In this document: one piece after another, positions 3,035 through 22,953 of the stretch
Numbering within the stretch: the first letter of the stretch is position 1
Layout of the letters: each line of letters opens with the position of its first letter
Origin: a virus
Strand: one strand, 5' to 3'
Virus record (IMG/VR): IMGVR_UViG_3300001851_000501
Coordinates: 1 to 22,953 of that record
Length of the DNA stretch: 22,953 nucleotides
Program-made: the position numbers and the translations under genes
Notes under the pieces: model-generated
The model's input: only the letters and a program-made list of their open reading frames with translations
Databases searched by the model: none
What the model was told of the DNA's origin: nothing

Positions 3035-3234
3035 ACCTTCTTTCTAGGCCTTTGATACTGGCCGCGTGCGTTTCTCGTCTGCGGCAGACGCGCGACACGC
3101 TGACCCTGCCGGCCACAGTTCGACGCCTGCGCGGAACCAAGGAGAAACGGACGACCCCGCACAACGGGTGTCTGCGCCACCGGTGCACGGCTGGCGTCAC
3201 CGCTCGCCTCGCACGTGGTTGGCGTGGTGGTCAC
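3031..3234 (-). CDS. Small basic protein, GTG start, 67 aa
   Basis: A 67-aa protein that is easy to miss because it starts with GTG. The GTG at 3234 overlaps the stop of the 169-aa gene upstream as GTGA, and its own TGA overlaps the methyltransferase ATG as ATGA. Two tight junctions of this kind, in the style used throughout the operon, are the main evidence. The N-terminus is Thr/Ser-rich. The C-terminus is basic, with RQGQRVARLPQTRN followed by GQYQRPRKKV, which would suit nucleic-acid contact. There are two cysteines (residues 7 and 40). No family is recognised. The same frame stays open upstream to 3408, but that part overlaps the 169-aa gene and is probably not translated. Confidence 0.6.
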   Translation of the reverse strand: MTTTPTTCEASGDASRAPVAQTPVVRGRPFLLGSAQASNCGRQGQRVARLPQTRNARGQYQRPRKKV

Positions 3235-3740
3235 GACGACATCGACTTTCGTGCGTAGGTGGATTGCCGCGTGCGATAGCGCTGTAGCGCCGGGTTCGTA
3301 GTGGCACACCGGCAGCGGGCAAAATAACTTCGCATCTCCGGCTCGCCGGCGGTGAGGCGCGACATGCGGCGCGACTCGACCCAGCCGCTGTCCTCGCAGT
3401 CCAGGCACTGCACCTGCACCCGCGGATCCTGGTCGGCCAGCGGCTGCACGGCGCCCGCGCGGTAGTCAGACGCGGTGACGGTGGGAGCCGGCGGCGTGCG
3501 CGTCTCGGGTGGCGCCGCAAACCGATCCGCATACATTCGCAACTCGGCCACCGACGGCAGAAACTTCTCGGCCTGAATCGCCGCGAACACGGCGCGCGTC
3601 AGAATGTCGTCGGGGACGTCGGCCAGTCCATCCTTGTAGGCGCTGGCCATTGACTCCGTCGGCGTCGTGCGAAACGCAGCGAACAGGCGCTGCATCGCGG
3701 CCACCCGCGGTGCGGGCATCGTGATCGTGGTGACGCTCAT
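3231..3740 (-). CDS. Helicase-loader-like / zinc-binding replication protein
   Basis: A 169-aa protein. Residues 11-75 form a compact all-helical segment of the kind seen in phage helicase-loader/inhibitor N-domains, with a short acidic-polar helix, a DVPDDILTRAV helix, then FLPSVAEL. A Pro/Thr-rich linker (77-90) leads to a C-terminal zinc knuckle: C112-x2-C115 with DSGW, then C143-x-C145. It is translationally coupled (ATGA) to the replication-initiator-like gene upstream, and that pairing is typical of phage initiator and loader genes. The loader assignment rests on the helical pattern and context, not on a firm motif. There is no Walker A, so it is not a DnaC-type ATPase. Confidence 0.55.
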   Translation of the reverse strand: MSVTTITMPAPRVAAMQRLFAAFRTTPTESMASAYKDGLADVPDDILTRAVFAAIQAEKFLPSVAELRMYADRFAAPPETRTPPAPTVTASDYRAGAVQPLADQDPRVQVQCLDCEDSGWVESRRMSRLTAGEPEMRSYFARCRCATTNPALQRYRTRQSTYARKSMSS

Positions 3741-4432
3741 CGGAACACCTCGGCAATCACCGCATCACTCACGGCCCCCTTGCCGGTCGGCGTCACGGTG
3801 CGCGTCGAGCCGTGCGTGTCGCGCCAGCGGTTGCGCCAGAAGTCGAACTGGTTGTCGCCAATCACGACGTCCGCCCACTGCTCGCGCACGCCCTGCGCCC
3901 ATGCGACCACCTGCGTGCGCTTCGCCTCGACATCGGCACCCGGCAGCTTGTTGCACAGCTCGAGCACCAACTCCTCGGTCAAGCACACCCAGTCGCAAAA
4001 CCCATCCACGTGCTGCCCATGACGCCGGTGCCACTGCACGCCTTCGGCGGGTCGAATCAGGGATCCGCTGCGGCTGGCGGCCGGCGACGGCGACATGCGG
4101 GCCACCGGCGCCGGCGTGTCCGGCGTCGGCGCGGGCGTGTCCACCGCGCCTGGCCGGCGCTTCTGCTCGACCGTCTCTCGCGCGGTCTGGTAGTCCAGAT
4201 AATCGTGAATATCGACCGAGCCGTCGCGGCGCGCCCTCCAGAGGCCCGACGCAATCAACTGCTGCCGCGCTTGCCACGGCCGGCTCCGCACAAAGGCGGA
4301 CGGCAGGTGCCCGTCGGTGAGAAATTCGGAGGCGTAACATAACGCTCCGACCCACTCGCGAAACGCGCGGTCAGAGAGCGTCAACACCTTCGGGTGTCGA
4401 ATCGACGTATGGTCCAGTTTGATCCACCCCAT
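3737..4432 (-). CDS. Replication initiator-like winged-helix protein
   Basis: A 231-aa protein. The ATG at 4432 is chosen because MGWIKLDHTS is the usual opening of this family; the frame also runs further upstream over the next gene. Residues 1-75 read as a winged-helix DNA-binding domain (IKLDHTSIRHPKVLTLSDRA, then ASEFLTDGHLP and LIASGLWR). A Pro/Ala/Ser linker of about 50 residues follows, and then a second helical domain with LTEELVLELCNKL and WRNRWRDTHG. This layout matches phage replisome-organiser or O-type proteins that bind the origin and recruit the helicase loader. The origin itself is not identifiable; in such phages it often lies inside this gene, possibly in the linker-coding DNA. 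The gene is followed by the loader-like gene with a 4-nt overlap. Confidence 0.65.
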   Translation of the reverse strand: MGWIKLDHTSIRHPKVLTLSDRAFREWVGALCYASEFLTDGHLPSAFVRSRPWQARQQLIASGLWRARRDGSVDIHDYLDYQTARETVEQKRRPGAVDTPAPTPDTPAPVARMSPSPAASRSGSLIRPAEGVQWHRRHGQHVDGFCDWVCLTEELVLELCNKLPGADVEAKRTQVVAWAQGVREQWADVVIGDNQFDFWRNRWRDTHGSTRTVTPTGKGAVSDAVIAEVFR

Positions 4433-4437
4433 GACAT

Positions 4438-4701
4438 CTACCAAGGCTTCACAACAACGATGTTGGTCACCGCCGCGGTCGGCGTGTCGTCTTTCGGCTT
4501 GCCGTAGGCGTAGTGCCATAAGACGGCTTCCATCGCGCCGGCTTCGCCGCGGCGGAGGCGGATCTTGAGCGCTTCGCGATAGACCTCGTCCTCGACGAGA
4601 TGCCGCGCATGGACGCGTGCGCGCGCCGCGATGTGATCGTTGGTAGTCGACCGTTTGGCCGGCGTCGTGGCTGTGGCGGGCTTAGGGGTGGGCAGGCTCA
4701 T
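4438..4701 (-). CDS. Small helical phage protein, possible TerS-like
   Basis: An 87-aa protein. The N-terminal 25 residues are Pro/Thr/Ala-rich and probably disordered. The rest is one helical unit, VEDEVYREALKIRLRRGEAG then MEAVLWHYAYGKPKDD. The GEAG...LWHYAYGKPK signature occurs in small phage proteins, some annotated as terminase small subunits, so a DNA-recognition role in packaging is possible. It lies about 2.8 kb from terL, with the methylase and replication genes between, so the assignment is tentative. Its ATG overlaps the preceding TAA by one base (TAATG). Confidence 0.6.
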   Translation of the reverse strand: MSLPTPKPATATTPAKRSTTNDHIAARARVHARHLVEDEVYREALKIRLRRGEAGAMEAVLWHYAYGKPKDDTPTAAVTNIVVVKPW

Positions 4702-4895
4702 TAATGCACCACCTTGTGTGCGACTTGGCCATTCAGCCAGTCCAGCACCGGCTGCGCGGGCCAGAGATACCGCTTGCCCATGCGGATGACGGGCAGCTTG
4801 GCCTCCAGCACGATCTTCCGGGCCTGTCGCGGCGTGACGAAGAGCAGCAGGCCGAGCTGTTCACTGTCGTAGTACAACCGTTCGTCGTCGATCAT
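4701..4895 (-). CDS. Excisionase-family helix-turn-helix protein
   Basis: A 64-aa protein with a MerR/excisionase-like helix-turn-helix: LYYDSEQLGLLLFVTPRQAR, then LPVIRMGKRYLWPAQPVLDWL. The pattern of a first helix, a recognition helix containing TPRQARKI, a short wing ending in GKRYLWP and a closing LDWL helix is typical of small phage Xis/AlpA-like DNA-binding proteins. It could serve as the recombination directionality factor for the integrase at 8582-9625, or as a regulator of the early genes. It sits inside the replication operon rather than next to int. A GAGGTG ribosome site lies about 10 nt before the ATG. Confidence 0.75.
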   Translation of the reverse strand: MIDDERLYYDSEQLGLLLFVTPRQARKIVLEAKLPVIRMGKRYLWPAQPVLDWLNGQVAHKVVH

Positions 4896-4897
4896 TG

Positions 4898-5449
4898 TCA
4901 GAGCACCTCACTCGAAAAACGTGCATGGGCGCGCTTCAGGCCGGTGGGCCAGGCGCCGTGATGGGTGGTCCAGCTGGGGTCGTGAACCAACACGCGGTCG
5001 GTCGGCTGACACGTGTAACGTCCGTTCTCAAGCGCAAGCACCGTCATGGTCTTGTCCTGCGACGGCTCGCGCGAGTAGTCGTCGTGCAGCGGCTGCACGG
5101 AAAACAGATAACGACCGTCCAGCGGGTGCGACGAGGCGGTACGCACCCGCGCCGAACAGCGAAGGCCGTCGAGATACGGCACGCGCAGCACCTGCACATG
5201 GTCGCTGTAGGCGTCCCAGTGCTGTGCGTCCCATGGACACCAGTCCGGCGCGGGGTCAGCCTCGTGCGCGAGGAAGTGCAGCGGCACATCGCGATACATG
5301 GCGCCCGACTCAAGCAACAGCGTCGCGCCAAACATGCGGCCAGGCACCGCATGCAGCAGAAACCACACCGCCGGCACAAAGCCCGTCGGGACGCGATGCG
5401 TGTACGTCGAATCGACGAAACAATATTGATGCGGCACCGGATGAATCAC
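4898..5449 (-). CDS. Conserved phage protein of unknown function, 183 aa
   Basis: A 183-aa soluble, mixed-composition protein with no signal peptide or membrane span. It has many aromatic residues and looks like one compact beta-rich domain: PVPHQYCFVDSTYTH at the start, VPAVWF, RMFGATLLLESGAMYRDVPL, PDWCPWDAQHWDAY, then SREPSQDK and PTDRVLVHDPSW. The pattern is familiar from unannotated phage and prophage proteins, but I cannot name a fold or activity. The start is GTG at 5449, overlapping the upstream stop as GTGA. It sits between a small membrane protein and an HTH gene in the early region. Confidence 0.75.
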   Translation of the reverse strand: MIHPVPHQYCFVDSTYTHRVPTGFVPAVWFLLHAVPGRMFGATLLLESGAMYRDVPLHFLAHEADPAPDWCPWDAQHWDAYSDHVQVLRVPYLDGLRCSARVRTASSHPLDGRYLFSVQPLHDDYSREPSQDKTMTVLALENGRYTCQPTDRVLVHDPSWTTHHGAWPTGLKRAHARFSSEVL

Positions 5450-5631
5450 GGTCGCTCCATCCGATGCACCTTGGCTTCCGGCCGCGCGTGAATGTCAAAC
5501 GGTTGATTCCACTGCCACAGGCGCACCTGCAGCGACTCCAACTTGCAACTGAATCGCCAGCAGGTACTCCATCCCACCCCGTAGCCCACCGCCGCGGCCA
5601 GCACCGCCGTGATCACATGCTCAGTCGTCAT
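5446..5631 (-). CDS. Small single-span membrane protein
   Basis: A 61-aa protein. ATG at 5631 is preferred because the residues upstream of it are Arg/Cys-rich and overlap the preceding gene. Residues about 6-22 (VITAVLAAAVGYGVGWS) form one predicted transmembrane helix. The remainder is a 40-residue soluble tail with CWRFSCKLE and a basic C-terminus. The gene overlaps the upstream winged-helix gene by 11 nt and the downstream 183-aa gene by 4 nt (GTGA). Function is unknown. Small early membrane proteins in phages are often superinfection-exclusion or host-takeover factors, but nothing here proves it. Confidence 0.6.
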   Translation of the reverse strand: MTTEHVITAVLAAAVGYGVGWSTCWRFSCKLESLQVRLWQWNQPFDIHARPEAKVHRMERP

Positions 5632-5851
5632 GTCGTGTTTGCGCCTCCACGCGCACCGAATACACCAACGCCCGTCGTTCGCGACGCGCGGCAATCACCT
5701 GTCGTTCCGCCCAGCGCTGCAGACTGCGCTGCACCAACGTCTTACTCACACCCGCGTCTCGCACCAGTTGCAGCACGGTCGCCGTGCCGCCGCGGCCCTG
5801 CAGCGCCTGCCAGACGCGCGCTTCGCCGGGTGAGCGCAGGGTTGGGATCAT
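5621..5851 (-). CDS. Winged-helix DNA-binding protein
   Basis: A 76-aa protein. The ATG at 5851 overlaps the stop of the 30-aa membrane microprotein as ATGA, which decides the start; the reading frame upstream of it is antisense noise. Residues 8-70 give a classic winged helix: ARVWQALQGRGGTATVLQLV, then the HTH DAGVSKTLVQRSLQRWAERQ, then a beta-wing IAARRERRALVYSV. It resembles minimal MarR/ArsR-like domains and could be an early transcription regulator. No ligand or partner domain is present. Confidence 0.68.
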   Translation of the reverse strand: MIPTLRSPGEARVWQALQGRGGTATVLQLVRDAGVSKTLVQRSLQRWAERQVIAARRERRALVYSVRVEAQTRHDD

Positions 5852-5940
5852 TCCGGCTCGACAATGTTGGCGACCACGACCGACGCCGCCAACAGCACGA
5901 CCAGCGCGAGGACGATCACGCCCGCCACCATCCACTTCAT
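5848..5940 (-). CDS. Membrane microprotein, 30 aa
   Basis: A 30-codon ORF starting ATG at 5940 and ending TGA at 5848. Both ends are 4-nt ATGA overlaps: with the stop of the nuclease gene (5937) and with the start of the winged-helix gene (5851). A GGAG lies 9 nt upstream. The peptide starts MKWMVAG and is almost entirely one hydrophobic helix of Val/Leu/Ala/Ile (residues 5-27), ending in VEPE. It would be a single-pass membrane peptide with an N-terminal Lys. Removing it would leave an unexplained 86-nt gap in an otherwise gapless operon. Function is unknown. Confidence 0.6.
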   Translation of the reverse strand: MKWMVAGVIVLALVVLLAASVVVANIVEPE

Positions 5941-6254
5941 GTCGTGGTTCTCCGATTCCAGTAGCAAACTAGGAGTTGTTCGACGAGCTTGGCCGCTTTA
6001 CCGTTACGCAAATCCGACGGTTCGCACCGCACAATGGCCCACCCGTCAGTGGTCGCGGTGTTGTATTTCTCCATGTCGCCGCGAAACCCCGACCCGCGCG
6101 TGTGCCGACCGCGCGACCAGACGCCGCCTTCGACCTCAAGCGCGCACCGAAATTCCGGCCAGGCGTAGTCGAAGCGCCACCGGCGCGTCGGGTGAAATTT
6201 GTATTCAGGTTGGGGCGCCGGCAAATTGAGGGCGCGGAGCTGCAGTTCAAACAT
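5937..6254 (-). CDS. PDDEXK-like small endonuclease
   Basis: A 105-aa protein from ATG at 6254; upstream in-frame residues overlap the previous gene. It has a compact restriction-endonuclease-like core: WRFDYAWP (D29), then beta strand ALEVEGGVWS (E40, E42), then GRHTRGSGFRGDMEKYN and a final GWAIVRCEP strand. This pattern is shared by small phage nucleases of the DUF559/VSR-like type. The usual Lys after the ExE pair is not where the textbook motif puts it, so the metal-binding set should be checked. Probable roles are in phage replication or recombination, or degradation of host DNA. It overlaps the upstream HTH gene by 8 nt. Confidence 0.65.
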   Translation of the reverse strand: MFELQLRALNLPAPQPEYKFHPTRRWRFDYAWPEFRCALEVEGGVWSRGRHTRGSGFRGDMEKYNTATTDGWAIVRCEPSDLRNGKAAKLVEQLLVCYWNRRTTT

Positions 6255-6666
6255 GCCGCGCGACTTCCGTTTCGTGCACTCGCTCGAGCATCTGCTGCGC
6301 CTGGTGTCGCAGGCGCGCCAGGGCCGCATCGACTTCCGCCGGCGTCGCCTTCGACGTCAGCTTGTAGCCGTCGCTGGACGAGATGACGGTGCCGTGTGCG
6401 TGGTTGGCGAGGTAGCGCACCTCCCGCAAATCGAGCTGCAGCGCGCGCGCAATCTCCTTAGCCGTGTGCCAGGCGCCGTCGTCCAATAGCGCGCGCATGG
6501 CGCGCAGTTCGTCCTTGCGGCGGTCGTCGGCCGTGACGCGCACGGACAGAAAGTTCAAGAACCCCTGTGCGGCAAAGCCCCCGAGTTTTGTGGCGACGGC
6601 TCGGGGGCGGACCGCCTGGAGCACCGGGTTTGCCGGTGAGCCAACCTTGTGATCGACGGCGCTCAT
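6247..6666 (-). CDS. Winged-helix protein with C-terminal coiled coil
   Basis: A 139-aa protein. ATG at 6666 overlaps the exonuclease stop as ATGA, which decides the start. About 45 N-terminal residues (MSAVDHKVGSPANPV...) are variable. A winged helix follows: ELRAMRALLDDGAWHTAKEI, then LDLREVRYLANHA and the wing GTVISSSDGYKLTS. The last 35 residues form a charged helix (EVDAALARLRHQAQQMLERV) suited to dimerisation. It looks like a DNA-binding regulator or replication accessory. No closer family is recognised. Confidence 0.65.
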   Translation of the reverse strand: MSAVDHKVGSPANPVLQAVRPRAVATKLGGFAAQGFLNFLSVRVTADDRRKDELRAMRALLDDGAWHTAKEIARALQLDLREVRYLANHAHGTVISSSDGYKLTSKATPAEVDAALARLRHQAQQMLERVHETEVARHV

Positions 6667-8581: not shown

Positions 8582-9625
8582 ATGCCCCCCGCCTTGCGTG
8601 CCGCCGTCGCCGCCGTCGCCGCTGGCGCCGCCGTTGCGCCGTCGTTCGTCGAAATTTCAACCACTTGGCTGCATTCCGAGCGCCGCCACCCCTCCACGCT
8701 GCGAACGTATGGGTGGGCTATCCGAATTTTGGCCGAGCGCTGGCCCGCGACTGGCTGGGCGACCGACCCACGCGACGTGATCCAAGACCTCCGTCTCAAC
8801 TTTCGTCCCTCGACGGCCAACGTGTTGACGTCCGTCCTGGCGCAGCTCGGACACTACTGTCTGTCCGTCGGTTTAATTGAATCGACCAAACATTGGTATG
8901 CCAAACCGTTGCCGTCGCCGACGAGGCGCTACGACTTGACGCGGGAGGAATTCGCGAGGCTGATGCAGGTCGGCCTCGACCACCGCGGCACCTCGGGACC
9001 GCTGCCGGCGCTGCTGGGCCTGACGGGTGTCCGCATTGGCGAAGCGCTGGCACTGACCTGGACGGACGTCGAAGTGGAGGCGAGCCAACTCAACGTCCAC
9101 TCCTACTATTCAGTGGAGCGACGGACTTTTGCGTTGCCCAAGACCCGAGCGGGCTACCGCCGCATCCCGTTGTCAGAGTCCCTGCTGCAGGCGCTGCTCC
9201 GATGGCGACGCGACCCCGACCCGACCGCGTTTGTGTTTCCGCATCGGCGCCTGCCGCAGCGCCCCGTCAACATCGACGACGTGCGCGCCGAGCTGCGCCA
9301 GCTCGCCACGGCCGTCGGGATTCGCGCCACGGTCACACCGCACACGCTGCGCCACGCCTTTGCGACGGTCGGCCTGCAGGCGGGCCTCGACGTCCGCACC
9401 CTCTCGACGTTACTGGGTCACTCCGAGATCGCCGTCACGTTGACCAACTACTGCCATGTCACCGCCGACTCCCTGCGCGAAGTCCGCGCGCACGCCGAGC
9501 AGTTGCTCGAGGCGCACCAGCCGCGCACAGCAATTACAGACCGCGTGCCGCGGCCGAAACCAGTCAAGGTCACGGCTCTCACACCACGGGCAGGACGCCG
9601 TGTCCATGCGTCAGGGCGTCGGTGA
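8582..9625 (+). CDS. int: Tyrosine-recombinase integrase
   Basis: A 347-aa site-specific recombinase. After an Ala-rich 20-residue lead, residues 21-105 form a SAM-like core-binding domain (FVEISTTWL, STLRTYGWA). The catalytic domain is complete: R151 in TGVRIGEALALTW, K187 in LPKTRAGYRRIP, H254 and R257 in HTLRHAFAT, H280 in LLGHSE, and nucleophile Y290 in TNYCHV. The last 45 residues are basic and Pro-rich. A GGAAGGA ribosome site is 6 nt before the ATG. It is divergent from the early operon and convergent with the lysis cassette, overlapping the 57-aa gene by 15 nt at the 3' end. It implies a temperate lifestyle. attP is not recognised; the 8452-8581 gap is one candidate location. Confidence 0.95.
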   Translation: MPPALRAAVAAVAAGAAVAPSFVEISTTWLHSERRHPSTLRTYGWAIRILAERWPATGWATDPRDVIQDLRLNFRPSTANVLTSVLAQLGHYCLSVGLIESTKHWYAKPLPSPTRRYDLTREEFARLMQVGLDHRGTSGPLPALLGLTGVRIGEALALTWTDVEVEASQLNVHSYYSVERRTFALPKTRAGYRRIPLSESLLQALLRWRRDPDPTAFVFPHRRLPQRPVNIDDVRAELRQLATAVGIRATVTPHTLRHAFATVGLQAGLDVRTLSTLLGHSEIAVTLTNYCHVTADSLREVRAHAEQLLEAHQPRTAITDRVPRPKPVKVTALTPRAGRRVHASGRR

Positions 9626-13800: not shown

Positions 13801-14502
13801 TTAACTAAAAATCTGGTTCGCCAGAATGTTGGTGGAATCGTCGTAGGCAATCGTGACCGACGCGGGGTTCGGGGCAATCACGATGGACGTGACACCGTCG
13901 GCCACACCCACGACGCGCGAATACGTGCCGGCGGTGGACGACAGTGCCCCCGCCGTGCTGCTGACGTAATACGTGGCGCCTACGGTCAGCGGCCCCGTCA
14001 CACTCACCTGGCCGAGCAACCGAATCGCGCCTGACGCGCCGCTGCTGATGGCCGCGGGCGCCATGCCCACCTGCGGCGTGCTTGAGCTGTCCGCGGCGTC
14101 GGCGTCCGCTAGATACCAGCGGCCCGCCGTCGTGCCGCCGCTGCCCGTCGCCAGATACACCACGTCGCCGGCCGCGATGGCCTCGCCCGCCGTGCCCGTG
14201 ATGTCTAGGTTGACGGAGAACGGGGCGACGCTCGAGACGTTGTCCTGCGACCACACGGTCGCGCCCGCGGCCGTCTTGAGGACGAACTTGTAGGAGGCGC
14301 CCGCCAGATACACCACCGCCCGACCCGCGCTGTTGAGCACGACCGGATTCGCGTTCGCGATGGTGAGGTTGACGTCGCTGTAGGTCGTTGCCGGCGTTGA
14401 GGTGCCCGCGTCGTAGACGTAGAGCAGCCCGCCCGAGACGGGGTCGCCGTTGCTATCAAAGCCCGTGAACACGGGCGACGGCATGACGGTGCCGGTCGCC
14501 AT
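13801..14502 (-). CDS. Tail-fibre N-terminal-type protein, 233 aa
   Basis: A 233-aa protein. Its first 75 residues are a classic phage fibre or tailspike start: PSPVFTGFDSNGDPVSGGLL, YDAGTSTPATTYSD, NPVVLNSAGRAVVYL and SYKFVLK. The rest is a repetitive Ser/Thr/Ala/Gly beta region (AGDVVYLATGS, GQVSVTGPLTVGATYYVSS, GVADGVTSIVIAPNP) with no catalytic residues. It probably attaches the fibre to the virion and carries a short shaft, the tip being supplied by the following small genes. GAGG precedes the ATG. It is the first fibre gene, with the divergent plus-strand gene starting 95 nt away. Confidence 0.82.
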   Translation of the reverse strand: MATGTVMPSPVFTGFDSNGDPVSGGLLYVYDAGTSTPATTYSDVNLTIANANPVVLNSAGRAVVYLAGASYKFVLKTAAGATVWSQDNVSSVAPFSVNLDITGTAGEAIAAGDVVYLATGSGGTTAGRWYLADADAADSSSTPQVGMAPAAISSGASGAIRLLGQVSVTGPLTVGATYYVSSTAGALSSTAGTYSRVVGVADGVTSIVIAPNPASVTIAYDDSTNILANQIFS

Positions 14503-14597: not shown

Positions 14598-15377
14598 ATG
14601 TGCACTGGCTACAGAAAACGGCAATGGGAAGACCCGCCGCGCACGCCCGAGAGCGAACGCCGCAACCGCGCGTGGGACCGCAAACGGAAGCGATGGAGCC
14701 GCCATCCGCCGGCTCGGTTTGTTGACGTGAGCGAGAATCTGAATCAAAAGCGTGCGGGGTTCGCGGACCCCGACTACGCGCTCGCGTTTCGCGCGCTGGA
14801 TGGTTCGTTTTCCATCGCGCAGTTCAAACGGCACGCCGTGTTCTATGGCGGCGCCGTGCCGGACCACGCGCGCCAGGCGCCGCATGAATTGAGCGACACG
14901 CCCCTGCCGACGCACCTGCCGGTGTTTCACCGCAACGGCGCCGACGGCTCCTATGTGCTGCCGGGTGCGCCGCTCAAGCCGCTCCTGGCCCGCTGGCGGC
15001 GCCGGCCACCGAAGCGCATGGTCGTCTTGGCTGGCCCGACCCTGCCGCGCCATGACGTATGGCCGTATCGCAATCCCCAGCGGTTTTACATCCTGGCTTA
15101 CACGGCGCCCGATGGAACGCTCGGCATCGCGCGGTTTGAGAATACGCACGGCTATTGGGGGCCGACGCCCGACTACCTGATTCACCGGCGACAGCGAGAG
15201 CTTATCCACCGGTACGGCCCTGAGGGGATGCCGAAGCGGTTTGTGATGAATAGCCGCTCCGGCGGAGGAACGAGCCGAATCCCAGTGCCGCCAGCACCGG
15301 AAACAGCGTGTTCGGATCCTGCAGTTGTTTCTCCAGCTCCGGCACGCCCCCCTTTGCAAGCGCGCGAAGGTAATTGA
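14598..15377 (+). CDS. Plus-strand moron-like gene, unknown function
   Basis: A 259-aa protein inserted against the direction of all the virion genes. The N-terminus (1-40) is very basic (RKRQW, RRNRAWDRKRKRWSRH). Two similar modules follow: ALAFRALDGSFSIAQFKRHA (61-80) and ILAYTAPDGTLGIARFENTH (165-184). Each is L/I-A-F/Y-x3-DG-x2-I-A-x-F plus an aromatic/Gly segment (VFYGGAVPD and GYWGPTPDY). The last 40 residues are Pro/Ala/Ser-rich and antisense to the 988-aa gene for 176 nt. No family or active site is recognised. The antisense frame on the minus strand is Arg/Ala-rich and looks like a shadow. Orientation and isolation fit a lysogenic-conversion (moron) gene. Confidence 0.6.
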   Translation: MCTGYRKRQWEDPPRTPESERRNRAWDRKRKRWSRHPPARFVDVSENLNQKRAGFADPDYALAFRALDGSFSIAQFKRHAVFYGGAVPDHARQAPHELSDTPLPTHLPVFHRNGADGSYVLPGAPLKPLLARWRRRPPKRMVVLAGPTLPRHDVWPYRNPQRFYILAYTAPDGTLGIARFENTHGYWGPTPDYLIHRRQRELIHRYGPEGMPKRFVMNSRSGGGTSRIPVPPAPETACSDPAVVSPAPARPPLQAREGN

Positions 15378-18168
15378 GGAGGTCGGGCGCCACTTGTTCA
15401 ATGTCCGGCCGCGACTTCAGCAGCACGTCCAGTTTGGCTTGCGCCCACTGTCGCACAGGACGCGAGCCTAGCTTGCGTTGCATGTCCAGCGGCAGTTGCG
15501 AAAACCACCGTATTAGTTCGGTGGTTTTCACGCGGGAGCCAACCTCACCCGGTGGGGTTTCGAAATAGCTTGTGGACGCCGACACCGCGTTTCGGCCGAT
15601 GTCATGTTTTTCCACGGCCTGCCCAATAACGTCTTCGACGGCCTGACGCACCTGGTCCCCGTAGGCCTTGTCCACCGGCGCATCAAACCGCAGCACATTG
15701 ATGCTCTTGCCAAAATCCTGAATGACGTGCTGACTGCTACCGAGACGTTGACTCAGTGCATCCACATCGGCGCTACTCAGCGTGACGTTCTTGGGCAACT
15801 GCACGTGCACCATGTCAAGGGGAACGTCTTCTTTCACCAACCGTTCTGGCACAAACGCCGTGAGGGCGGACGCTTGTTGCTGATTGGCGATGGCCTCCAT
15901 CGACGCAGTCACCCGCAACGCCGCTTCGTCGGTGGGGGCAATCGCGTTGTTGCGGATGGGCGCGTTCGCCACGTATCCGCTCATCCGGTTGCGTTCACGC
16001 ACGCCACCGGCCGGCCAATCCCCGCGGCCAACGGTCGTGTCGCCCACGTTGTCGCCATACACCGCCCGCAGCAATCGCGACGCGCCCGTGTCGTCCTGGC
16101 TCGCTTGCTGCAATTGCTTTTCGACGCGCTTGGCTTTGGTGTCTGACAGCCCTTGATAGACGCCCTCGCGGCCGGCCGCACCGGTTCGCATGGATTCGGT
16201 CGGCGACACCACCGGCACGCGCCAGGACGTCGGCTGTTGCGCCGGTGACCAGACGTCACCCTCATGCAGCATGTTCGTGACTGTGCGCGCCTGTTGCGTG
16301 GCTTCGTCGGCCATCTTGCTGGCATACGTCACATCGCGCGGCGTGGTGACGCGTTTCTTGCCGAGCACGTCGCGCGTCGTGCCTTGACGCATCAACGCCT
16401 GTGTTGCGTCCAACCACGCCTCATACGGCATCCGCGCGGGGTTGGTGGCAATCGGCATCACCTCGCCCGTGTCGGGCGTGTCTTTCGTGCGAATCGCCGC
16501 GCTGTGGAAGTCCAGATTGCTCAACACGCGATCCCCAGCCGCCGCGTCGCGGAGGTGACCAGGGAGCCGCAGGCGCGCGGTGGCCGAGCTGAACGACGGC
16601 GTCGGCGAGCCAGCAATCGCCTGCATTCCCATCCAGGTCTTCGCCATGAACTGGAACGGGTTCTCGCCGCGCTTGGCCGCTTCTTTCGCCATCGCTTCTG
16701 AAATCAGGCGATAGTATCCGGTGCCCGGTGTCACGTCTGACTGGGCACCGATGGCGCGCATCAGCCACATATCAATCGGAATCTTGTCGTGCAGGCCGAC
16801 CATCGATCCCGACATCGCTTCGACCTTGTCGTCAAACAACCGGCCCAGCAACACCGCGCGCTCAAGATTGTCCTGCACCGTGTTCGGCCGCGGGTGCTTG
16901 AAGGACAACGACCCACCCATGCGCGTCATCTCGCCGGTGTCGGCGTCCTTCACCAACGGTCCAAGAATGTCGTCGACCGATTCGCCGCGCGCCGACCGCA
17001 AGAACGCTTCAATCGCGTTGAGGGTATTGGCGTCCGTCTTTTGTCCTGGCGAGAACGCACCAAACAATCGTGAGAGCTTTGCCGCTGTCGTCGGGTCGCC
17101 GTCGGTCAGGTGATACACCCAGCGCGCATCATCCCAGTCTTCCAGGGCGGCGCGCTCCACGCCGGCGTCATACGCGGCGGCGACACGCTGTTCTGACCAC
17201 GGCGCTAATTTGACCCCACGCGCCTTCAGGTCGCTGGTGGTCGTCGCCGTCCCGCGGGCATCCTCGGTCAACACCTGTGACAGCGGACGCCGATCATCAA
17301 AGTTGATGCCGCGGTACACGGGCAGCGCAATCGTGTTGTAGGCGTCCTCGAGACGCTGCGCGTCTGCGGGCGACTTCGCGTACTCGCGAATGATCTTGCG
17401 GGCGCCCGCGTCAATCTCCGCGGTTTTCAGTTGAAATGTGGATTCCGGTTTCCCGGAGGCCAGGTGCGCGGCTTTCTGCGCCGCGGTGGCTTCACTGCGG
17501 AACGCATCAAGATCCGCACTGAGTTTGCGGAATTTCTTCGGGAACCATCCCGCCGCCGCCATCGACGCGCCACCCGTCAGCGCTTTCGCGGCTAACGCGC
17601 CCTTCGCCGCGGTCACCACATCCTCAGGGCCAGTCGGCAGGTAGTCAGCCACGGTGGCGGCGGTCTGCAACCACGGTGACGCCTCACGTGCGCGCGCTTC
17701 GTTTGCGAAGGTGGCGTGCTCTTCCACCGGTCGCAGTGGATCGACGACGCCGGCGCCCGGTGGCGTCGGCTGATTCATCAACGCGTCGGCAAAGGCACCT
17801 GCCGCTGCGGGCACGGTGGCCTGCGCTGCGGACACCATTCGCAGCGGCGTCGTATAGGGGACGCCGTCGGGCAGTCCAGTCGGCTGGCGGTCTAACGCCC
17901 CGATCAGGCCTCCCAACGTCTGCACGGCGGCGTTGCCCATGACCGCACCGACGTCACGACCCAACCGTCCCTGCACCAGCGACGCACGCAGCGCCGGCGA
18001 CACAACGGGCGTCTCTTCCCGCGCCCGCGTCGGCCCCGCCATCGGGTCAATGCCCTCAAGAATCTGACGCGACGACGGCACCGCTGGCGGCGGCTGCGCT
18101 TGCAGCCACTGCCGCGCGCGGGCTACGTCCTCGGCCGTCATCGGCTGCAGAGAGAACCGCTGACCCAT
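15202..18168 (-). CDS. Large virion protein, polyvalent/ejection-like, 988 aa
   Basis: The largest gene. ATG at 18168 shares one base with the preceding TAA. Residues 1-30 carry TAEDVARARQWLQAQPPP. Residues 80-205 hold Ala/Gly-rich amphipathic helices, and 213-280 a charged helix region. Residues about 366-520 (LFGAFSPGQKTDANTLNAIE, then LHDKIPIDMWLMRAIG and ENPFQFMAKTWMG) resemble the DUF7178-type helical module of large phage polyvalent proteins. The C-terminus has VPELEKQLQDPNTLFPVLAA. It is probably an internal virion protein delivered with the DNA. No protease or lytic transglycosylase motif is obvious. The last 58 codons overlap the opposite-strand gene. Confidence 0.75.
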   Translation of the reverse strand: MGQRFSLQPMTAEDVARARQWLQAQPPPAVPSSRQILEGIDPMAGPTRAREETPVVSPALRASLVQGRLGRDVGAVMGNAAVQTLGGLIGALDRQPTGLPDGVPYTTPLRMVSAAQATVPAAAGAFADALMNQPTPPGAGVVDPLRPVEEHATFANEARAREASPWLQTAATVADYLPTGPEDVVTAAKGALAAKALTGGASMAAAGWFPKKFRKLSADLDAFRSEATAAQKAAHLASGKPESTFQLKTAEIDAGARKIIREYAKSPADAQRLEDAYNTIALPVYRGINFDDRRPLSQVLTEDARGTATTTSDLKARGVKLAPWSEQRVAAAYDAGVERAALEDWDDARWVYHLTDGDPTTAAKLSRLFGAFSPGQKTDANTLNAIEAFLRSARGESVDDILGPLVKDADTGEMTRMGGSLSFKHPRPNTVQDNLERAVLLGRLFDDKVEAMSGSMVGLHDKIPIDMWLMRAIGAQSDVTPGTGYYRLISEAMAKEAAKRGENPFQFMAKTWMGMQAIAGSPTPSFSSATARLRLPGHLRDAAAGDRVLSNLDFHSAAIRTKDTPDTGEVMPIATNPARMPYEAWLDATQALMRQGTTRDVLGKKRVTTPRDVTYASKMADEATQQARTVTNMLHEGDVWSPAQQPTSWRVPVVSPTESMRTGAAGREGVYQGLSDTKAKRVEKQLQQASQDDTGASRLLRAVYGDNVGDTTVGRGDWPAGGVRERNRMSGYVANAPIRNNAIAPTDEAALRVTASMEAIANQQQASALTAFVPERLVKEDVPLDMVHVQLPKNVTLSSADVDALSQRLGSSQHVIQDFGKSINVLRFDAPVDKAYGDQVRQAVEDVIGQAVEKHDIGRNAVSASTSYFETPPGEVGSRVKTTELIRWFSQLPLDMQRKLGSRPVRQWAQAKLDVLLKSRPDIEQVAPDLLNYLRALAKGGVPELEKQLQDPNTLFPVLAALGFGSFLRRSGYSSQTASASPQGRTGG

Positions 18169-19550
18169 TACTGCACCCTCACCGGTTGACCGTGCACCAT
18201 GCCCCACGCCTGGCCGGCAAACGGCCCTTCATGGAACACCACTTTCTGGCCCTCTGGCAGCGTGCCTAGACCCGGCGGCATGGCCTGGCGAGAGGCCATC
18301 GGCGGTTGCGACGGAGACGGCTCATCGGGCGTCGTGTCTGTGCCCAAAGACGACCGCAGCGCTCGGGCTGCTACCTCAATCGTCTTCGCGGGCACACGCG
18401 ACACCTTGCCAGCCTCGTTATACAAACCTTTGGCAATGTAGGATTTTGCCGCCGGCCAACGGTCGATAAGCGCCGCCATAAATGTTGCCGGCTGTTTACT
18501 CGCGGCGGTCGCGGTCCATGCAAACCCCACCGGATCACGATTACCAGCCACCGCGGCACGTCGAGCCACGGCGTCAAGGGCATCAATCAAGCGCCCTTCC
18601 CTTGCATTCATGGGCGCCACCGACGGCGCGAGCACTTCCAGTTCTTCTTTCAATCCACGGGCTAAAGCTTTTTCCGCTTCAATGGCCGCTGTTGACGCCA
18701 CGCCATACTTCTCACCCATGCGGCGATACGTGCCGACCTTCAACGCTTGCGCCTGTGGCGGTGTCAACCCTGTGCGCGCCATCCATGGATGCTGCAGAAA
18801 CTCATTGCCGACGTCACCAATGTCGCGTAGCGCCCTATCGGGATTGACCTGCGCGACATATTCGCGCGCCGTGTCACCGAGCCGTTGCGTGACGCGATAC
18901 GGATTCACCGCACCTGACGCATTCGCGATCTCGTTGTTCACTTGCGTATTTACGGCATCGATCTTTGCGCGCAGTTGCCGCACGCCCCGCGGCGACACCG
19001 GCACGCCCTCATCCAGCAGCGTCGTGACCACTTCCGGCTCAACACCTTGTTTTATCGCGCGCATGGCGTCCACATACGGTGGCTTCACCGCGCTCTGCAT
19101 CAACCCACGCGCGACTGCGTTGAACGCTGGCGTGATGGCCCATCGACCCACACCCTCGCCCACAGCACCCATCACGCCTTCTTTTGCGATTTGCGTGGCG
19201 GCATCGGCTGCTGTCGCTGGTGCGTCGACACCGCGATAGCGGTTGAGCAACTGGCGCAGGCTTTCGCCACCAGCCGCTAAAGTGCTCGCGCCAATTACCG
19301 CTCCAGGTGCGGCTCCGATACCAAAGGCCGGAAGGCCGGATGCGCCGCCAAGCACGCCGCCCACGGTCGCGGCCGCGGCAGGAATGAGGTCTACCGCCGT
19401 GTCCACCCACGTGCGCTCGCGCGGCTGCTGAACCTCTCGAACGACCACTGCGCCAAGATCACGCCATTTTTTGACTTGATCTTCCGGAACCTCTCGCTCT
19501 TCGCCGCCTTGGTCGGCCGGCGCCCGCATGAGAAATCGACGAGTGCTCAT
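18168..19550 (-). CDS. Internal virion/ejection-like protein, 460 aa
   Basis: A 460-aa protein. Residues 51-95 are a Gly/Ala segment with glycine-zipper spacing (AAATVGGVLGGASG, then GIGAAPGAVIGAS), able to insert into or cross a membrane. Residues 100-400 are mainly helical, with long stretches such as VRQLRAKIDAVNTQVNNEIA and STAAIEAEKALARGLKEELE. The C-terminus is Pro-rich and then short strands (GQKVVFHEGPFAGQAWGMVH). Such proteins in a run next to the tail genes are typical of DNA-ejection components. It joins the 988-aa gene by TAATG. Confidence 0.68.
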   Translation of the reverse strand: MSTRRFLMRAPADQGGEEREVPEDQVKKWRDLGAVVVREVQQPRERTWVDTAVDLIPAAAATVGGVLGGASGLPAFGIGAAPGAVIGASTLAAGGESLRQLLNRYRGVDAPATAADAATQIAKEGVMGAVGEGVGRWAITPAFNAVARGLMQSAVKPPYVDAMRAIKQGVEPEVVTTLLDEGVPVSPRGVRQLRAKIDAVNTQVNNEIANASGAVNPYRVTQRLGDTAREYVAQVNPDRALRDIGDVGNEFLQHPWMARTGLTPPQAQALKVGTYRRMGEKYGVASTAAIEAEKALARGLKEELEVLAPSVAPMNAREGRLIDALDAVARRAAVAGNRDPVGFAWTATAASKQPATFMAALIDRWPAAKSYIAKGLYNEAGKVSRVPAKTIEVAARALRSSLGTDTTPDEPSPSQPPMASRQAMPPGLGTLPEGQKVVFHEGPFAGQAWGMVHGQPVRVQ

Positions 19551-19551
19551 G

Positions 19552-20910
19552 TTATTGATCCCAGAAGCTCTTGCCTTTGTTGGGTGGCGTGTCCAACGCC
19601 GACCCCGCGCGTTTCTGCAATGACTCTAAAGCTCTGTTGCGACCGTTTCTTCGATCATTTGCCAGCTTCTCCGTTTCTCCGTATTGCTTGGCATACGTGC
19701 GCCGATCTGCTTCAAATTCTCCCGCGCTGATGGCCGCGCCAGACACCGAGCGCAGCCGTGCTTCGGTGAATTGCTCAAACGCGCGCATATAGCGCTTGGC
19801 GTTTTCGCTCAATTGGTTGCGATTCAGTAAACCGATTAATCCTTCTTGCGGTAAAGACTGAATCTGATACAACTCGTCTTTTGTCAGAAACGGCTCAACT
19901 TGATTTATCACGTCCAGTGCGTCTGACATCTGACCAAACCATCCCGCCGACTTCTTCTCATCTTCCGTAGCCTTGACGCGTGTCATCTCTCTCGGCGTAT
20001 CGCCTGGCTGCACGCGATTGGTGTACACATCCTCACCAGACCGCGTGACCCATTGCCACGACGGCTGCGGGCCTTGCGGCGCCACCGGCAACGGCGATAC
20101 CTGCACTGATGCGCCTGTGTTTGCGTCGGTGTATCTGCCAGAACGCGGATCAAAATTCACGATTGTCGGTTTGCCGTTCACCAACAACGTCTCGCGCTGC
20201 TGATTAGGTGGAACTGGATTCCGGGCGGTGTATTTCTGCAGACCCAAAGTCTCCGCTTGGAGCTGCTCCTGCCACGACGGCAACCGTTCATACCGATCTG
20301 GCCGCGCCGCGATATCCGACGACATGGTGGACCCGATGACCCCGCCCAGCGCCTCATTGTCTGGATTCAACGCTCTGACGCCCGCGAGGGGCATATTGTC
20401 GCTGATGCCACGTGCCGGTAGACGTTCCGCCTCAGCCGCCTGAAACGCATACATGGGCGCCGCCGACGTGTTCTGAATATCCCGCGCATAGTTTTCGGGC
20501 GTCATCACGTCACCAGGACGCATGTTCTCAGCCAGCTTTATGGCCCGCGTGTCTCGGAACTGGTCGCGCCGCCATTGCTCGTCCGCCGCCGCACGCGCCG
20601 CAGCATTCCGCTCGGCGGCTTCCTGCGTCGCGATCTGGCGGTTCTTGAACGCGTTCTCAATGGCTTGCTGTTCCGCCGCCACCGCGCGCTGTTTCGTCAG
20701 CTCGCGCTGCTGCGCCAACTGTGCCAGCGTCTGCATCACCGCCTGGCCGGCGCTCTGCCACATCTGCGCGCGCGAGGCGCCCCGCTGCAACGCCCCCTGC
20801 GCCGCGACGTCGGCCCGACGATTGATCAAGTCGGCTAGCCGCGTGACAAACGCGCTGTTGTCATACGGCTCGGGCACAAACGGCCCCGAGAACGTCTGAT
20901 TCACGGGCAT
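19552..20910 (-). CDS. Virion-associated coiled-coil protein, 452 aa
   Basis: A 452-aa protein. Residues 20-125 form a long Gln/Ala/Arg-rich coiled coil (WQSAGQAVMQTLAQLAQQRE, AAEQQAIENAFKNRQIATQE). The middle part is mixed, with a small beta unit (ETLLVNGKPTIVNFDPRSGR). The C-terminus has ARLRSVSGAAISAGEFEADR followed by a charged helix, RALESLQKRAG. The SGAAISxxE...RRRY-type end recurs in phage internal proteins. No enzyme motif is seen. The ATG shares one base with the preceding stop (TAATG). Confidence 0.68.
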   Translation of the reverse strand: MPVNQTFSGPFVPEPYDNSAFVTRLADLINRRADVAAQGALQRGASRAQMWQSAGQAVMQTLAQLAQQRELTKQRAVAAEQQAIENAFKNRQIATQEAAERNAAARAAADEQWRRDQFRDTRAIKLAENMRPGDVMTPENYARDIQNTSAAPMYAFQAAEAERLPARGISDNMPLAGVRALNPDNEALGGVIGSTMSSDIAARPDRYERLPSWQEQLQAETLGLQKYTARNPVPPNQQRETLLVNGKPTIVNFDPRSGRYTDANTGASVQVSPLPVAPQGPQPSWQWVTRSGEDVYTNRVQPGDTPREMTRVKATEDEKKSAGWFGQMSDALDVINQVEPFLTKDELYQIQSLPQEGLIGLLNRNQLSENAKRYMRAFEQFTEARLRSVSGAAISAGEFEADRRTYAKQYGETEKLANDRRNGRNRALESLQKRAGSALDTPPNKGKSFWDQ

Positions 20911-21761
20911 TACTGGTTGCCTCCGTTGAAGACACTATTGGCCCAGTTCCCCTGCGCCGCCCAGCGACGGAACGCGTCGTCATTCATGTAGGTGAACAAA
21001 TCCCAGTCGCGCCCAAACTGCAGTTCGGCCGCGCGCTGCTTCGGCAGGAATTCATTCCACGACGCCTGGAAGTCGCGGTCGTAGGCCGCACGGTTTTCAT
21101 CCGTATTGGCCGACCAGGACGTAAACGCATTGTTGCGGTTCCGGTCGTAGGTGTCCGCCGCGGTGCGATAGTTGCGGTCGTAGGCATCAGCGGCGCGGTT
21201 GTAGATGTTGTTGTATTCCTGCGACGCAAACGACTGGCCGTAGCCCAGCAAGTCTTTGAGCGTGCCGCCCGTCCGCAGTGTGCCGCGAGCGCCGGCCGAA
21301 TTCTCCAGCGCGCGTTGCCCTTCTTTCAGCCGAAACTGGTAACTGGGATCACCGGCAAGCTGATTGGGATCGGGCGCGACAAACGGATCCGGCGCCTTAA
21401 AGGCGTCGTAGCTAAACGGCGTCGCGCGCTGATACCGCGGCGCCGTGAACATGGGGAAGTTATACGCGCCACCGCCACCGCCACCGCCGGCGTAGGCGGT
21501 GCCACCGCCAGCGTAGGCGTTGGCTGAGCCGCCTCCCCCTGGAACTTTATCAACCGGTGAATCTTTCTTTTCGGCGGTTTCTTCGGGTGGAATATTCGTG
21601 GTGGGATACACCGCCTCGCCGGGAATGACAAACGGCGTGAATGCCGGCGTCGCCGGCGGCGCGGCGTCTTCCGGGTTCGGGTCATACCACGACGGCTGTT
21701 CCTGTTCCCACCAGGGCGGGGCATCGCTACCCCACGGGTCCGAATATTGATCGTCGTACAT
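20910..21761 (-). CDS. Virion protein with 11-residue aromatic repeats, 283 aa
   Basis: A 283-aa protein in three parts. Residues 1-70 are acidic, aromatic and Pro-rich (PWGSDAPPWWEQEQPSWYDP). Residues 75-100 are a Gly linker with AYAGGG repeats. Residues 135-283 are helical: SYQFRLKEGQRALENSAGAR, TGGTLKDLLGYGQSFASQEY, then an aromatic residue exactly every 11 positions (Y183, Y194, Y205, W216, Y227, F238, F249). The YQFRLxxGQxAxENSAxARG...GGTLKxLxxYGQ signature is known from phage tail-tip or ejection-associated proteins. The repeat predicts a long hendecad coiled coil. Likely a virion protein; its exact place is unknown. Confidence 0.72.
   Translation of the reverse strand: MYDDQYSDPWGSDAPPWWEQEQPSWYDPNPEDAAPPATPAFTPFVIPGEAVYPTTNIPPEETAEKKDSPVDKVPGGGGSANAYAGGGTAYAGGGGGGGAYNFPMFTAPRYQRATPFSYDAFKAPDPFVAPDPNQLAGDPSYQFRLKEGQRALENSAGARGTLRTGGTLKDLLGYGQSFASQEYNNIYNRAADAYDRNYRTAADTYDRNRNNAFTSWSANTDENRAAYDRDFQASWNEFLPKQRAAELQFGRDWDLFTYMNDDAFRRWAAQGNWANSVFNGGNQ
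20985..21215 (-). repeat. 33-bp periodic coding repeat (11-aa hendecads)
   Basis: Seven consecutive 11-residue units starting at Y183 of the 283-aa protein. At DNA level CGGTCGTAGG on the plus strand recurs at 21076, 21142 and 21175, spaced 66 and 33 bp, which shows real duplication rather than only amino-acid bias. Confidence 0.75.
21467..21539 (-). repeat. Gly-rich low-complexity coding linker
   Basis: Codes for GGGG, AYAGGGTAYA and GGGGGGGAY in the 283-aa protein. Runs of CCACCGCC on the plus strand make it prone to slippage and length change. It separates the acidic N-domain from the helical domain. Confidence 0.65.
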
Positions 21762-21768
21762 CGCTCAC

Positions 21769-22503
21769 TCAGCCTTTGTAGGTGATGCTGGGGTTGTAGG
21801 CGTAGGGCGCCGACGTCGGCTGGCTGTAGTTGTTCTGCAGCCACTGCAGCGCCGCCCCTGACGCCGCCCGATACGGCGCCCGTCGTGCCTGTTCCGCCTC
21901 ATACTGCTGCTGCGCCAGCGCCATCGTTTTTTCCCAGTTGGCCTGTTGCTGCGCGTTCATCTCTTTCTGCAGCGCTTCGGTGCGGTCTAACGCTTCTTTC
22001 TGGAACGCCAACGCATCCGCCGACGCACCGCTTTGAGCGCGGTTCGCCATGTAGTTGCTTAAGAGATTGGTGCCCAGACTCGCCACCGTGCTAAAGCCTG
22101 GTGAGTTCAAAATCTTTGCGAGATTGCCAAGGGTCGTCACGCCGCCTGCTCCTACCGCGGGAGCGGCGGTGAACCCGATGCCTTCGGTCGCGAAGGCCGG
22201 TGCGCCATATGTGCTCGTCGCCGCGCCGCCGGCCGCGGGCGCGAGTGCCGACAGTGCGCCTGCCGTCAACACCCCCGCCGCCCCCGCCATTGCCAGTCGG
22301 TCGGCCGTTCGCCACCGGCTCTTCGAGCGCTCCAACGCCAGCCGGTCGGCCTCCATCAACTGAGGCATCGTGACGCGTGAAAACTCCACAAAGGCCGGGT
22401 CATTCGCATCAGCCGGTCGACCAAACTGCTGCTCAAACTGTTTCGCGACGCGCTGGGCTAGGCTGCTACCGTCAGTCCAGTTGCTCTGCTTTGCAATCTT
22501 CAT
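21769..22503 (-). CDS. Virion protein with hydrophobic core and coiled coil, 244 aa
   Basis: A 244-aa protein. Residues 14-64 are charged and helical (AQRVAKQFEQQFGRP, LMEADRLALERSK). Residues 71-97 are an Ala/Gly hydrophobic segment (AMAGAAGVLTAGALSALAPA) and 100-150 a Gly/Ala stretch that could be membrane-active. Residues 163-208 are a Gln/Glu-rich coiled coil (QKEALDRTEALQKEMNAQQQ). The C-terminus is Tyr/Pro-rich. It resembles small podophage internal-core proteins. A GAGGGG ribosome site precedes the ATG. Confidence 0.68.
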   Translation of the reverse strand: MKIAKQSNWTDGSSLAQRVAKQFEQQFGRPADANDPAFVEFSRVTMPQLMEADRLALERSKSRWRTADRLAMAGAAGVLTAGALSALAPAAGGAATSTYGAPAFATEGIGFTAAPAVGAGGVTTLGNLAKILNSPGFSTVASLGTNLLSNYMANRAQSGASADALAFQKEALDRTEALQKEMNAQQQANWEKTMALAQQQYEAEQARRAPYRAASGAALQWLQNNYSQPTSAPYAYNPSITYKG

Positions 22504-22512
22504 GGCGCCCCT

Positions 22513-22953
22513 CTACCGATACCACCGAGACAAATCGGCCAACGTAATCTGGGGGCCATAGCCGCGACTCACATCGCCGCGCTGGCCCACCGTCACGGCC
22601 TCCATCCACGGGTATTGCTGCATCGCGTCCAACGACGTGCGGTAGCCGCGCGCGCCCGTCATCGGGTCAACGTACGACTGGGCCTGCGCCTGCGCGTTGC
22701 CGGCGCCACCGTCATCGGTCAACCACTGCCACCGCTTCGCGGAGTTATTGCTCGGGTCGCTCGCCTCCAGCACGTCCACGATGCCCACCGGCGTGCCCGA
22801 TTCGAAATCCGACTGCACCCCGCCGAAATCAATCTTGTCGTGGCCGACCTTCCGCGCATTCGGAAACGCGGCGCGAAAGTCGGCGTCCTGCATCACGGCG
22901 TCCAACGAATTCGGGGCGGAGGCATAGCGACTCGCAATCCGGCCAAACGTGTT
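22513..22953 (-). CDS. Virion protein, 3' part only (runs off the window)
   Basis: The frame is open from the right edge of the window to the TAG at 22513, so only the last 146 codons are visible and the true start is outside; a TTG at 22905 is not needed as a start. The visible part contains NTFGRIASRYA, VGHDKIDFGGVQSDF, TPVGIVDVLEAS and a WQWLTDDGG strand, and ends in ITLADLSRWYR. The DFGxxxxD...VDVL...WQW pattern occurs in phage structural proteins near ejection genes. The molecular role is unknown. Confidence 0.7.
   Translation of the reverse strand, partial: NTFGRIASRYASAPNSLDAVMQDADFRAAFPNARKVGHDKIDFGGVQSDFESGTPVGIVDVLEASDPSNNSAKRWQWLTDDGGAGNAQAQAQSYVDPMTGARGYRTSLDAMQQYPWMEAVTVGQRGDVSRGYGPQITLADLSRWYR

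Follow-up and report, generated by a model that had tools for sequence, protein, structure and literature searches.

A putative P22 gp7-type ejection protein with a predicted hendecad rod and a proline/aromatic strap whose length changes with it

We analysed a window of 22,953 bases, an IMG/VR virus record that is probably a fragment, and found on its minus strand a gene for a 283-aa protein that carries the core of a phage DNA-ejection family followed by an 11-residue aromatic array. Computation shows that the array lies within one predicted helix, that its length changes by whole units among relatives, and that the length of a Pro/aromatic segment ahead of the core, here called the strap, covaries with that of the helix at 1:2. 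In the best explanation, which we rate somewhat better than even, a P22-like podovirus encodes here a first-out ejection protein of the P22 gp7 type, a rod of hendecads strapped by the Pro/aromatic segment, with copies probably packed in the DNA conduit. The first-pass annotation spanned only the C-terminal half of the protein and had missed the strap at 21351-21458. The protein and its parts are as follows.

20910..21761, minus strand: gp7-type (phrog_598) ejection protein, 283 aa, with strap, core hairpin, hendecad array and cap (ORF, profile match, AlphaFold2 (AF2) model)
21459..21761, minus strand: residues 1-101, rich in Gly/Pro, predicted to be disordered (AF2 block pLDDT 46-56)
21351..21458, minus strand: strap, residues 102-137, putatively extended, Pro/aromatic, with the landmark FPMF at its start (repeat spacing, length comparison, AF2 coil)
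21216..21350, minus strand: conserved core hairpin, residues 138-182, helix 139-159, loop, helix from 166 (alignments, AF2)
21018..21215, minus strand: hendecad array, residues 183-248, six exact 11-residue units, aromatic first (periodicity, relatives)
20913..21017, minus strand: C-terminal cap FGRDWDLFTYMNDDAFRRW..., residues 249-283, bearing the seventh aromatic (alignments, AF2)

The family assignment rests on the core, for which the consensus is DPxYQFRLxEGQxALExSAxARGxLxTGGTLKDLLxYGQxxASQE. The phrog_598 profile, annotated 'DNA ejection', matches residues 133-189 of the window protein at E 1.9e-13 over profile positions 84-140 of 240, that is, over the core only, and the protein is likely a virion protein through this match. 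P22 gp7 is itself a member of phrog_598 (2e-95). Pfam PF25688 (P22_gp7) matches P22 gp7 proper at 9e-129 and gave no match to the window protein at E up to 1, and hhalign of the subfamily profile against P22 gp7 as a single sequence returned no alignment. Because the link to P22 gp7 is thus transitive through the family profile, we call the window protein gp7-type (phrog_598 core) and not an orthologue. Membership of the T7 gp14-type family (phrog_805) was rejected, since hhalign gave a probability of 0.05-0.07 for a sequence relation; only the upstream gene of locus L142 touches phrog_805, weakly (0.0086).

In P22-like phages, the genes of annotated relatives follow those for coat, adaptor and head closure and are immediately succeeded by the next ejection genes. 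A P22_portal match is present in 18 of the 20 records of array-bearing relatives, L123 carries head closure Hc3 and adaptor Ad3 as in P22, and L109 has a major head protein. The window ends before the portal, Hc3, Ad3 and head genes, and its P22-like context is read from these relatives. The records behind L115 (G001), L012 (G003), L134 (G004), L156 (G006), L099 (G016) and L229 (G014) have a portal insertion of ~50-90 residues near profile position 470.

In the collections that we searched, only uncultured viruses showed the array branch. None of 50,697 phage records covers 80% of either of two array queries, viral contigs scanned with the window protein alone or the 452-aa gene alone gave no relatives, and neither did a plasmid scan. 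Of six loci from a genome scan, L179 alone is clearly array-type; its contig, which also encodes a strap-like segment in the array-type protein, was binned as Acidobacteria, a possible hint at the host. A sequence search of the PDB gave no match to the family profiles, and the window protein had a single match at chance level; a fold search gave no confident match, long helices being poorly searchable. In Pseudomonas phage PAE2 (L005, 4689-5600) the ejection core is joined to a chaperone-of-endosialidase domain.

Standard phrog_598 members begin with an N-terminal half made of a hydrophobic stretch and then ...PYRxAGxxAL..., and this half is not in the window protein chain. The neighbouring genes indicate where it may have gone.

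21769..22503, minus strand: 244-aa upstream gene with a hydrophobic segment (best N-half match in the window, i-E 0.0025)
22513..22953, minus strand: 146-aa open-ended ORF, homologue of a domain N-terminal to the array core in relatives
19552..20910, minus strand: 452-aa gene with a 1-bp overlap, in the position of a gp20/tunnel-type ejection protein (synteny, weak match to L119)
18168..19550, minus strand: 460-aa gene with a Gly/Ala-rich hydrophobic stretch (DUF6861 at 2.3e-5, below the cut-off; comparison with relatives)
15202..18207, minus strand: 1001-aa gene, located where a large internal virion protein would be encoded (placed like the 1010-aa phrog_6651 protein of L115)

The 244-aa gene, which holds the hydrophobic segment (hydropathy 1.74), is 34% identical to the upstream gene of L123 over nearly its full length (6e-20). 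In many array loci the N-half profile matches the adjacent upstream gene while the downstream gene bears the core, most clearly in L142, where the upstream gene matches phrog_598 positions 4-88 at E 1.8e-14. The 244-aa gene therefore probably represents the N-terminal half of gp7-type proteins, split off as a gene of its own, and since that half apparently sits next door, the window protein is a split variant sharing the core and not a standard member. The 146-aa ORF is 46-48% identical to loci L204/L206/L214/L218; the domain that precedes the array core in L204/L218 is a separate gene in the window, a domain mosaic. The 460-aa gene is a probable further ejection protein, and the 1001-aa gene has homology to L123 (4e-9). 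A 233-aa gene at 13801-14502 has matches in 107 fetched loci, with up to 59% identity and a weak resemblance to cement/decoration proteins. A Type II-like DNA methyltransferase (1667-3034) and an integrase (8582-9625) are also encoded, and the phage may be temperate.

The array is exact. As had been noticed in the first pass, aromatic residues stand at positions 183, 194, 205, 216, 227, 238 and 249 (Y, Y, Y, W, Y, F, F) with zero slip. A run of seven aromatics at spacing 11 arose in 4 of 20,000 shuffles of the whole window protein and in 2 of 20,000 shuffles of residues 170-272, and the Phe/Trp/Tyr Fourier signal peaks, among the periods tried, at 3.667 residues. The aromatics of the array form one narrow stripe (resultant 0.77). 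Of the hendecad positions, a is Tyr/Phe/Trp in 84% of cases, d is Asn, e is Glu/Tyr and h is Arg/Ala; with ILMV at 8%, the units are devoid of a classical aliphatic core, and position composition finds no aliphatic a/d/e/h core of a hendecad coiled coil in the array. A right-handed coiled coil formed by the array is possible. Three DNA copies of CGGTCGTAGG, which had been taken to show growth by duplication, are indeed present at 21076, 21142 and 21175, with spacings of 66 and 33 bp. The decamer codes for (A/T)-Y-D-R, and over their full length the best pairs of units are identical at 16-20 of 33 bases, so the decamer alone is weak evidence and we dropped it as proof of duplication; it is the length steps among relatives that show growth by whole units.

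Using an AF2 monomer prediction of the window protein with 63 aligned sequences, we obtained a model in which helix 139-159 is joined by a loop to a second helix that runs without a break from 166 to 280, with block pLDDT of 92-98 across residues 181-250. The array is thus predicted as a single continuous helix, as expected of the long rod that had been proposed, and the exact 11-residue periodicity falls inside it. At 115 residues the helix would measure ~172 Å. Residues 101-140 are coil or short helix (block pLDDT 89-96), and residues 1-100 are poorly predicted. A model of the L143 protein, of lower confidence, has helices at 118-186 and 193-293.

Scans with core alignments yielded 80, 18 and 80 loci, partly overlapping, and later 7, 34 and 80 more, many on the same contigs. 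In most canonical members an Ala/Gly-rich tail follows after one or two units; long arrays occur in the closest relatives of the window protein, which keep the 11-residue spacing. The longest exact spacing-11 run has 15 aromatics (L143), and the same sequences shuffled reach 6 at most. We measured array length from the core tyrosine to the C-terminal cap, of which there are four kinds, that of the window protein being shared with L108, L113 and L123. In nearly all array members a whole number of hendecads, about 4 to 15, separates core and cap; L153 is 4 off register, and L205/L206/L218 have a 7-residue insert near the cap. Where two cores are at least 90% identical and the arrays unequal, the difference is always one of whole units (21 of 21 pairs; 11, 22, 44, 55 or 77 residues), and L149 and L166 differ by one 66-bp indel, with core and array DNA 96% identical. 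The length of the array thus changes between relatives by exact multiples of 11 residues; that it might vary had been anticipated in the first-pass annotation. In L126, L127, L161, L163, L164, L169 and L170, QTQYxDPY motifs break the arrays every 30-34 residues, so not every array is a single straight helix. L032 (ORF ~3060-6500) encodes a 1146-aa relative with a Q/N-rich 11-residue series far longer than the others. In L156, L166 and L149, E..R and Y..A units alternate to give a 22-residue super-repeat that spans as much as one strap repeat.

Just before the core lies a second 11-residue repeat, rich in Pro and aromatics, with aromatics at 105, 116 and 127 in the window protein (units FTAPRYQRATP FSYDAFKAPDP FVAPDPNQLAG). 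Its start coincides with the start of the confident AF2 coil at ~residue 101. Over 129 internal units the strap is 23% Pro and 19% Tyr/Phe. Chains of strap repeats have a length of 0-1 in 72 canonical members and of up to 7 in 51 array members, and no chains were found at other spacings from 7 to 14.

We compared strap length (start landmark to core, with landmarks picked by eye, subgroup by subgroup) with helix length (core to cap). Strap/helix residues are 36/66 in the window protein, 64/121 in L113 and L108, and 75/143 in L123; they run from 68/121 to 79/143 in a second group, are 28/78, 56/133 and 67/155 in a third and 52/121, 63/143 and 74/165 in a fourth, and in the small arrays are 28/37 (L153) and 31/44 (L109). 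Strap:helix changes in the four subgroups are 28:55, 39:77, 11:22 and 22:44, and 3:7 between the small arrays; the window protein conforms to this 1:2 rule when set against L113 and L123. Over the eight listed events the residual is 0.3 residue. Strap and array length correlate across 50 proteins (Spearman rho 0.73), and independent contrasts on the core tree give r 0.80 and a slope of 0.56 strap unit per hendecad (1 of 20,000 permutations), with 6 of 39 contrasts in the opposite direction and 8 without strap change. Exceptions are L098, in which a deletion shortens the strap by 16 residues with no change in the helix, and L205/L206/L218, in which the helix gains 7 residues and the strap none.

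At 1.5 Å per helical residue, the strap changes, that of 3:7 excepted, correspond to 2.95-3.0 Å per strap residue. This is close to the rise of a polyproline-II (PPII) strand, ~3.1 Å per residue. The 1:2 changes and the rise of ~3.0 Å thus suggest that the strap is extended and follows the helix over its full length. Strap and array are encoded apart from each other, so errors in copying would not by themselves hold them in step, and physical pairing would be the simplest reason for the covariation. This also disfavours the least probable alternative, a neutral low-complexity spacer expanded by slippage under no structural demand: the DNA is repetitive and units are gained and lost fast, but the register is held across four subgroups and the strap, a separate DNA stretch, follows the array at 1:2. 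From the length covariation we infer a contact between strap and helix; its antiparallel direction would follow from chain order, as the strap runs into helix 139-159, which is presumably folded back on the long helix. For a proline-rich strand along a helix, of the antigen I/II type, we observe the 1:2 covariation and an ordered AF2 coil in one monomer model.

In the strapped-rod explanation, the core would be a helix-loop-helix whose second helix is drawn out as a rod of 11-residue units showing a narrow Tyr/Phe/Trp stripe. The Pro/aromatic segment before the core would return along the rod, extended and PPII-like, as far as the C-terminal cap, one 11-residue strap repeat (33 Å) covering two hendecads (33 Å of helix). 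Several ejected copies would probably stand side by side and, we infer, form an oligomer that makes up the DNA conduit where it is closest to the virion. Unequal rod lengths would be tolerated provided that the strap matches the rod, and a strapped rod of ~17 nm (window) to ~30 nm (L096, if all helical) could give the conduit both length and stiffness.

A reading compatible with this explanation, tentative and in our estimate well short of even, is that the array lines the lumen of an oligomeric tube of alpha-helices like that of phiX174 H, and that its aromatic stripe forms the seam between neighbouring helices. H forms a decamer of hendecad helices, 170 Å long and N/Q/R-lined (PMC7354561), close to the ~172 Å of the window helix. 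The array is 35% N+Q+R with charges almost balanced, and in family arrays the amides lean opposite the aromatics (202° versus 8°; resultant 0.187, shuffle maximum 0.054). However, the amides of the window array are unpolarised (resultant 0.08), and the aliphatic seam residues of the H kind are scarce.

We consider it unlikely that the array is the molecular ruler that had been suggested, with the number of hendecads either fixing or being fixed by how long the tail, the portal barrel, the periplasmic tunnel or a similar structure is. Array length is quantised and variable, and rods of ~17 nm, up to ~30 nm (L096, if all helical), are comparable to an 18-25 nm periplasm (PMC10883804). Yet array length is unrelated to the portal barrel tail (rho -0.04) and to the downstream gene (rho 0.22, p 0.2): the L130/L155 and L149/L156 arrays (98 aa and 153 aa) are 55 aa apart, and the portal C-terminal tails are nearly equal at 117-123 aa. 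The length of the gp10-like protein is almost constant in the few loci measured. Whole portal length correlates with array length at rho 0.58, uncorrected for kinship. The sole partner found whose length the array tracks is the strap within the same protein.

Slightly less probable again is an amphipathic helix with an aromatic belt, lying on or lining a membrane, the latter also put forward in the first pass. A periodicity of 11/3 is known from membrane-lying helices too, and in the T7 gp14-type protein the ends are predicted to insert into the membrane of the host (PMC13320782). The array, by contrast, is very polar and charge-neutral, with few aliphatic residues (ILMV 8%) and a highest 19-residue hydropathy of -0.52, and the hydrophobic segment (1.74) sits instead in the upstream split gene; a membrane-lining helix is therefore not supported.

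Returning to the strapped rod, we give a little less than an even chance to its being a new architecture, that is, a hendecad rod zipped over its full length by an antiparallel strap at 2:1 in residues, forming a DNA conduit that evolves in quantised steps. No phage ejection protein of such design appears in the listed titles and abstracts of openly licensed papers on hendecads, and an earlier description may exist elsewhere. The first ejection protein of podophages has so far been regarded as the size-conserved member of the trio (PMC8954989, PMC10883804); in the array branch it varies several-fold, partly through added whole hendecads, and the lengths read from sequence suggest, by themselves, a composite rod of two strands. 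If this is right, natural pairs such as L149/L166, which differ by one 66-bp array step, offer a ready series on the conduit length required to cross the envelope in P22-like phages.

Among known systems, the nearest is P22 gp7 and phrog_598, which includes proteins of P22, Vibrio phage VvAW1 and others. Window relatives have the core DPGYxFRLxxGxxALxxSAAARGxLxSGxxxKxLxxYGQxxASQEYxNxYNR, shared with P22 gp7 only through the family profile, and they resemble the P22 type in their place before gp20/gp16-type genes and in the P22-type portal, Hc3 and Ad3 of array-bearing relatives. Unlike standard phrog_598 members, the window protein has its N-terminal half, it appears, as a separate upstream gene, a hendecad array and cap in place of the Ala/Gly-rich C-terminus, and an added Pro/aromatic strap. 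P22 gp7 has been proposed to be a tail extension and the virion-proximal conduit, and the Sf6 gp20 tube, at 15 nm, may fall short of the 18-25 nm periplasm (PMC10883804). Gp14-like proteins were reported to differ in size by <30% (PMC8954989), whereas array members here range from ~200 to 990 aa.

T7 gp14 is the functional counterpart of the gp7-type protein. It is ejected first, six two-helix subunits form a channel in the tail nozzle and outer membrane, and the ejected protein consists of two antiparallel, channel-lining helices (PMC11784390); Peru-2 P2_38 resembles it (PMC13320782). Like the predicted core of our protein, they form a helix-turn-helix, in their case in the ejected state, and they too come from the first small gene of the ejection trio; they differ in that no sequence link to our protein was found and, in the passages considered, no array or strap is described. 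The phiX174 H tube (PDB 4JPP as given in PMC7354561) likewise has a single long helix of similar length, with hendecads, N/Q/R-rich composition and a role in DNA delivery, but it comes from an unrelated kind of virus and sequence and has an aliphatic seam, mixed heptads and no strap. The stalk of streptococcal antigen I/II (the A3VP1 alpha/PPII hybrid) also pairs a long helix with a proline-rich PPII strand, in a 155 Å fibril (PMC3707005); it belongs to a surface adhesin, its helix is Ala-rich, the PPII strand follows the helix in the chain, and kinship is not expected. The likenesses to phiX174 H and antigen I/II are analogies, not kinship.
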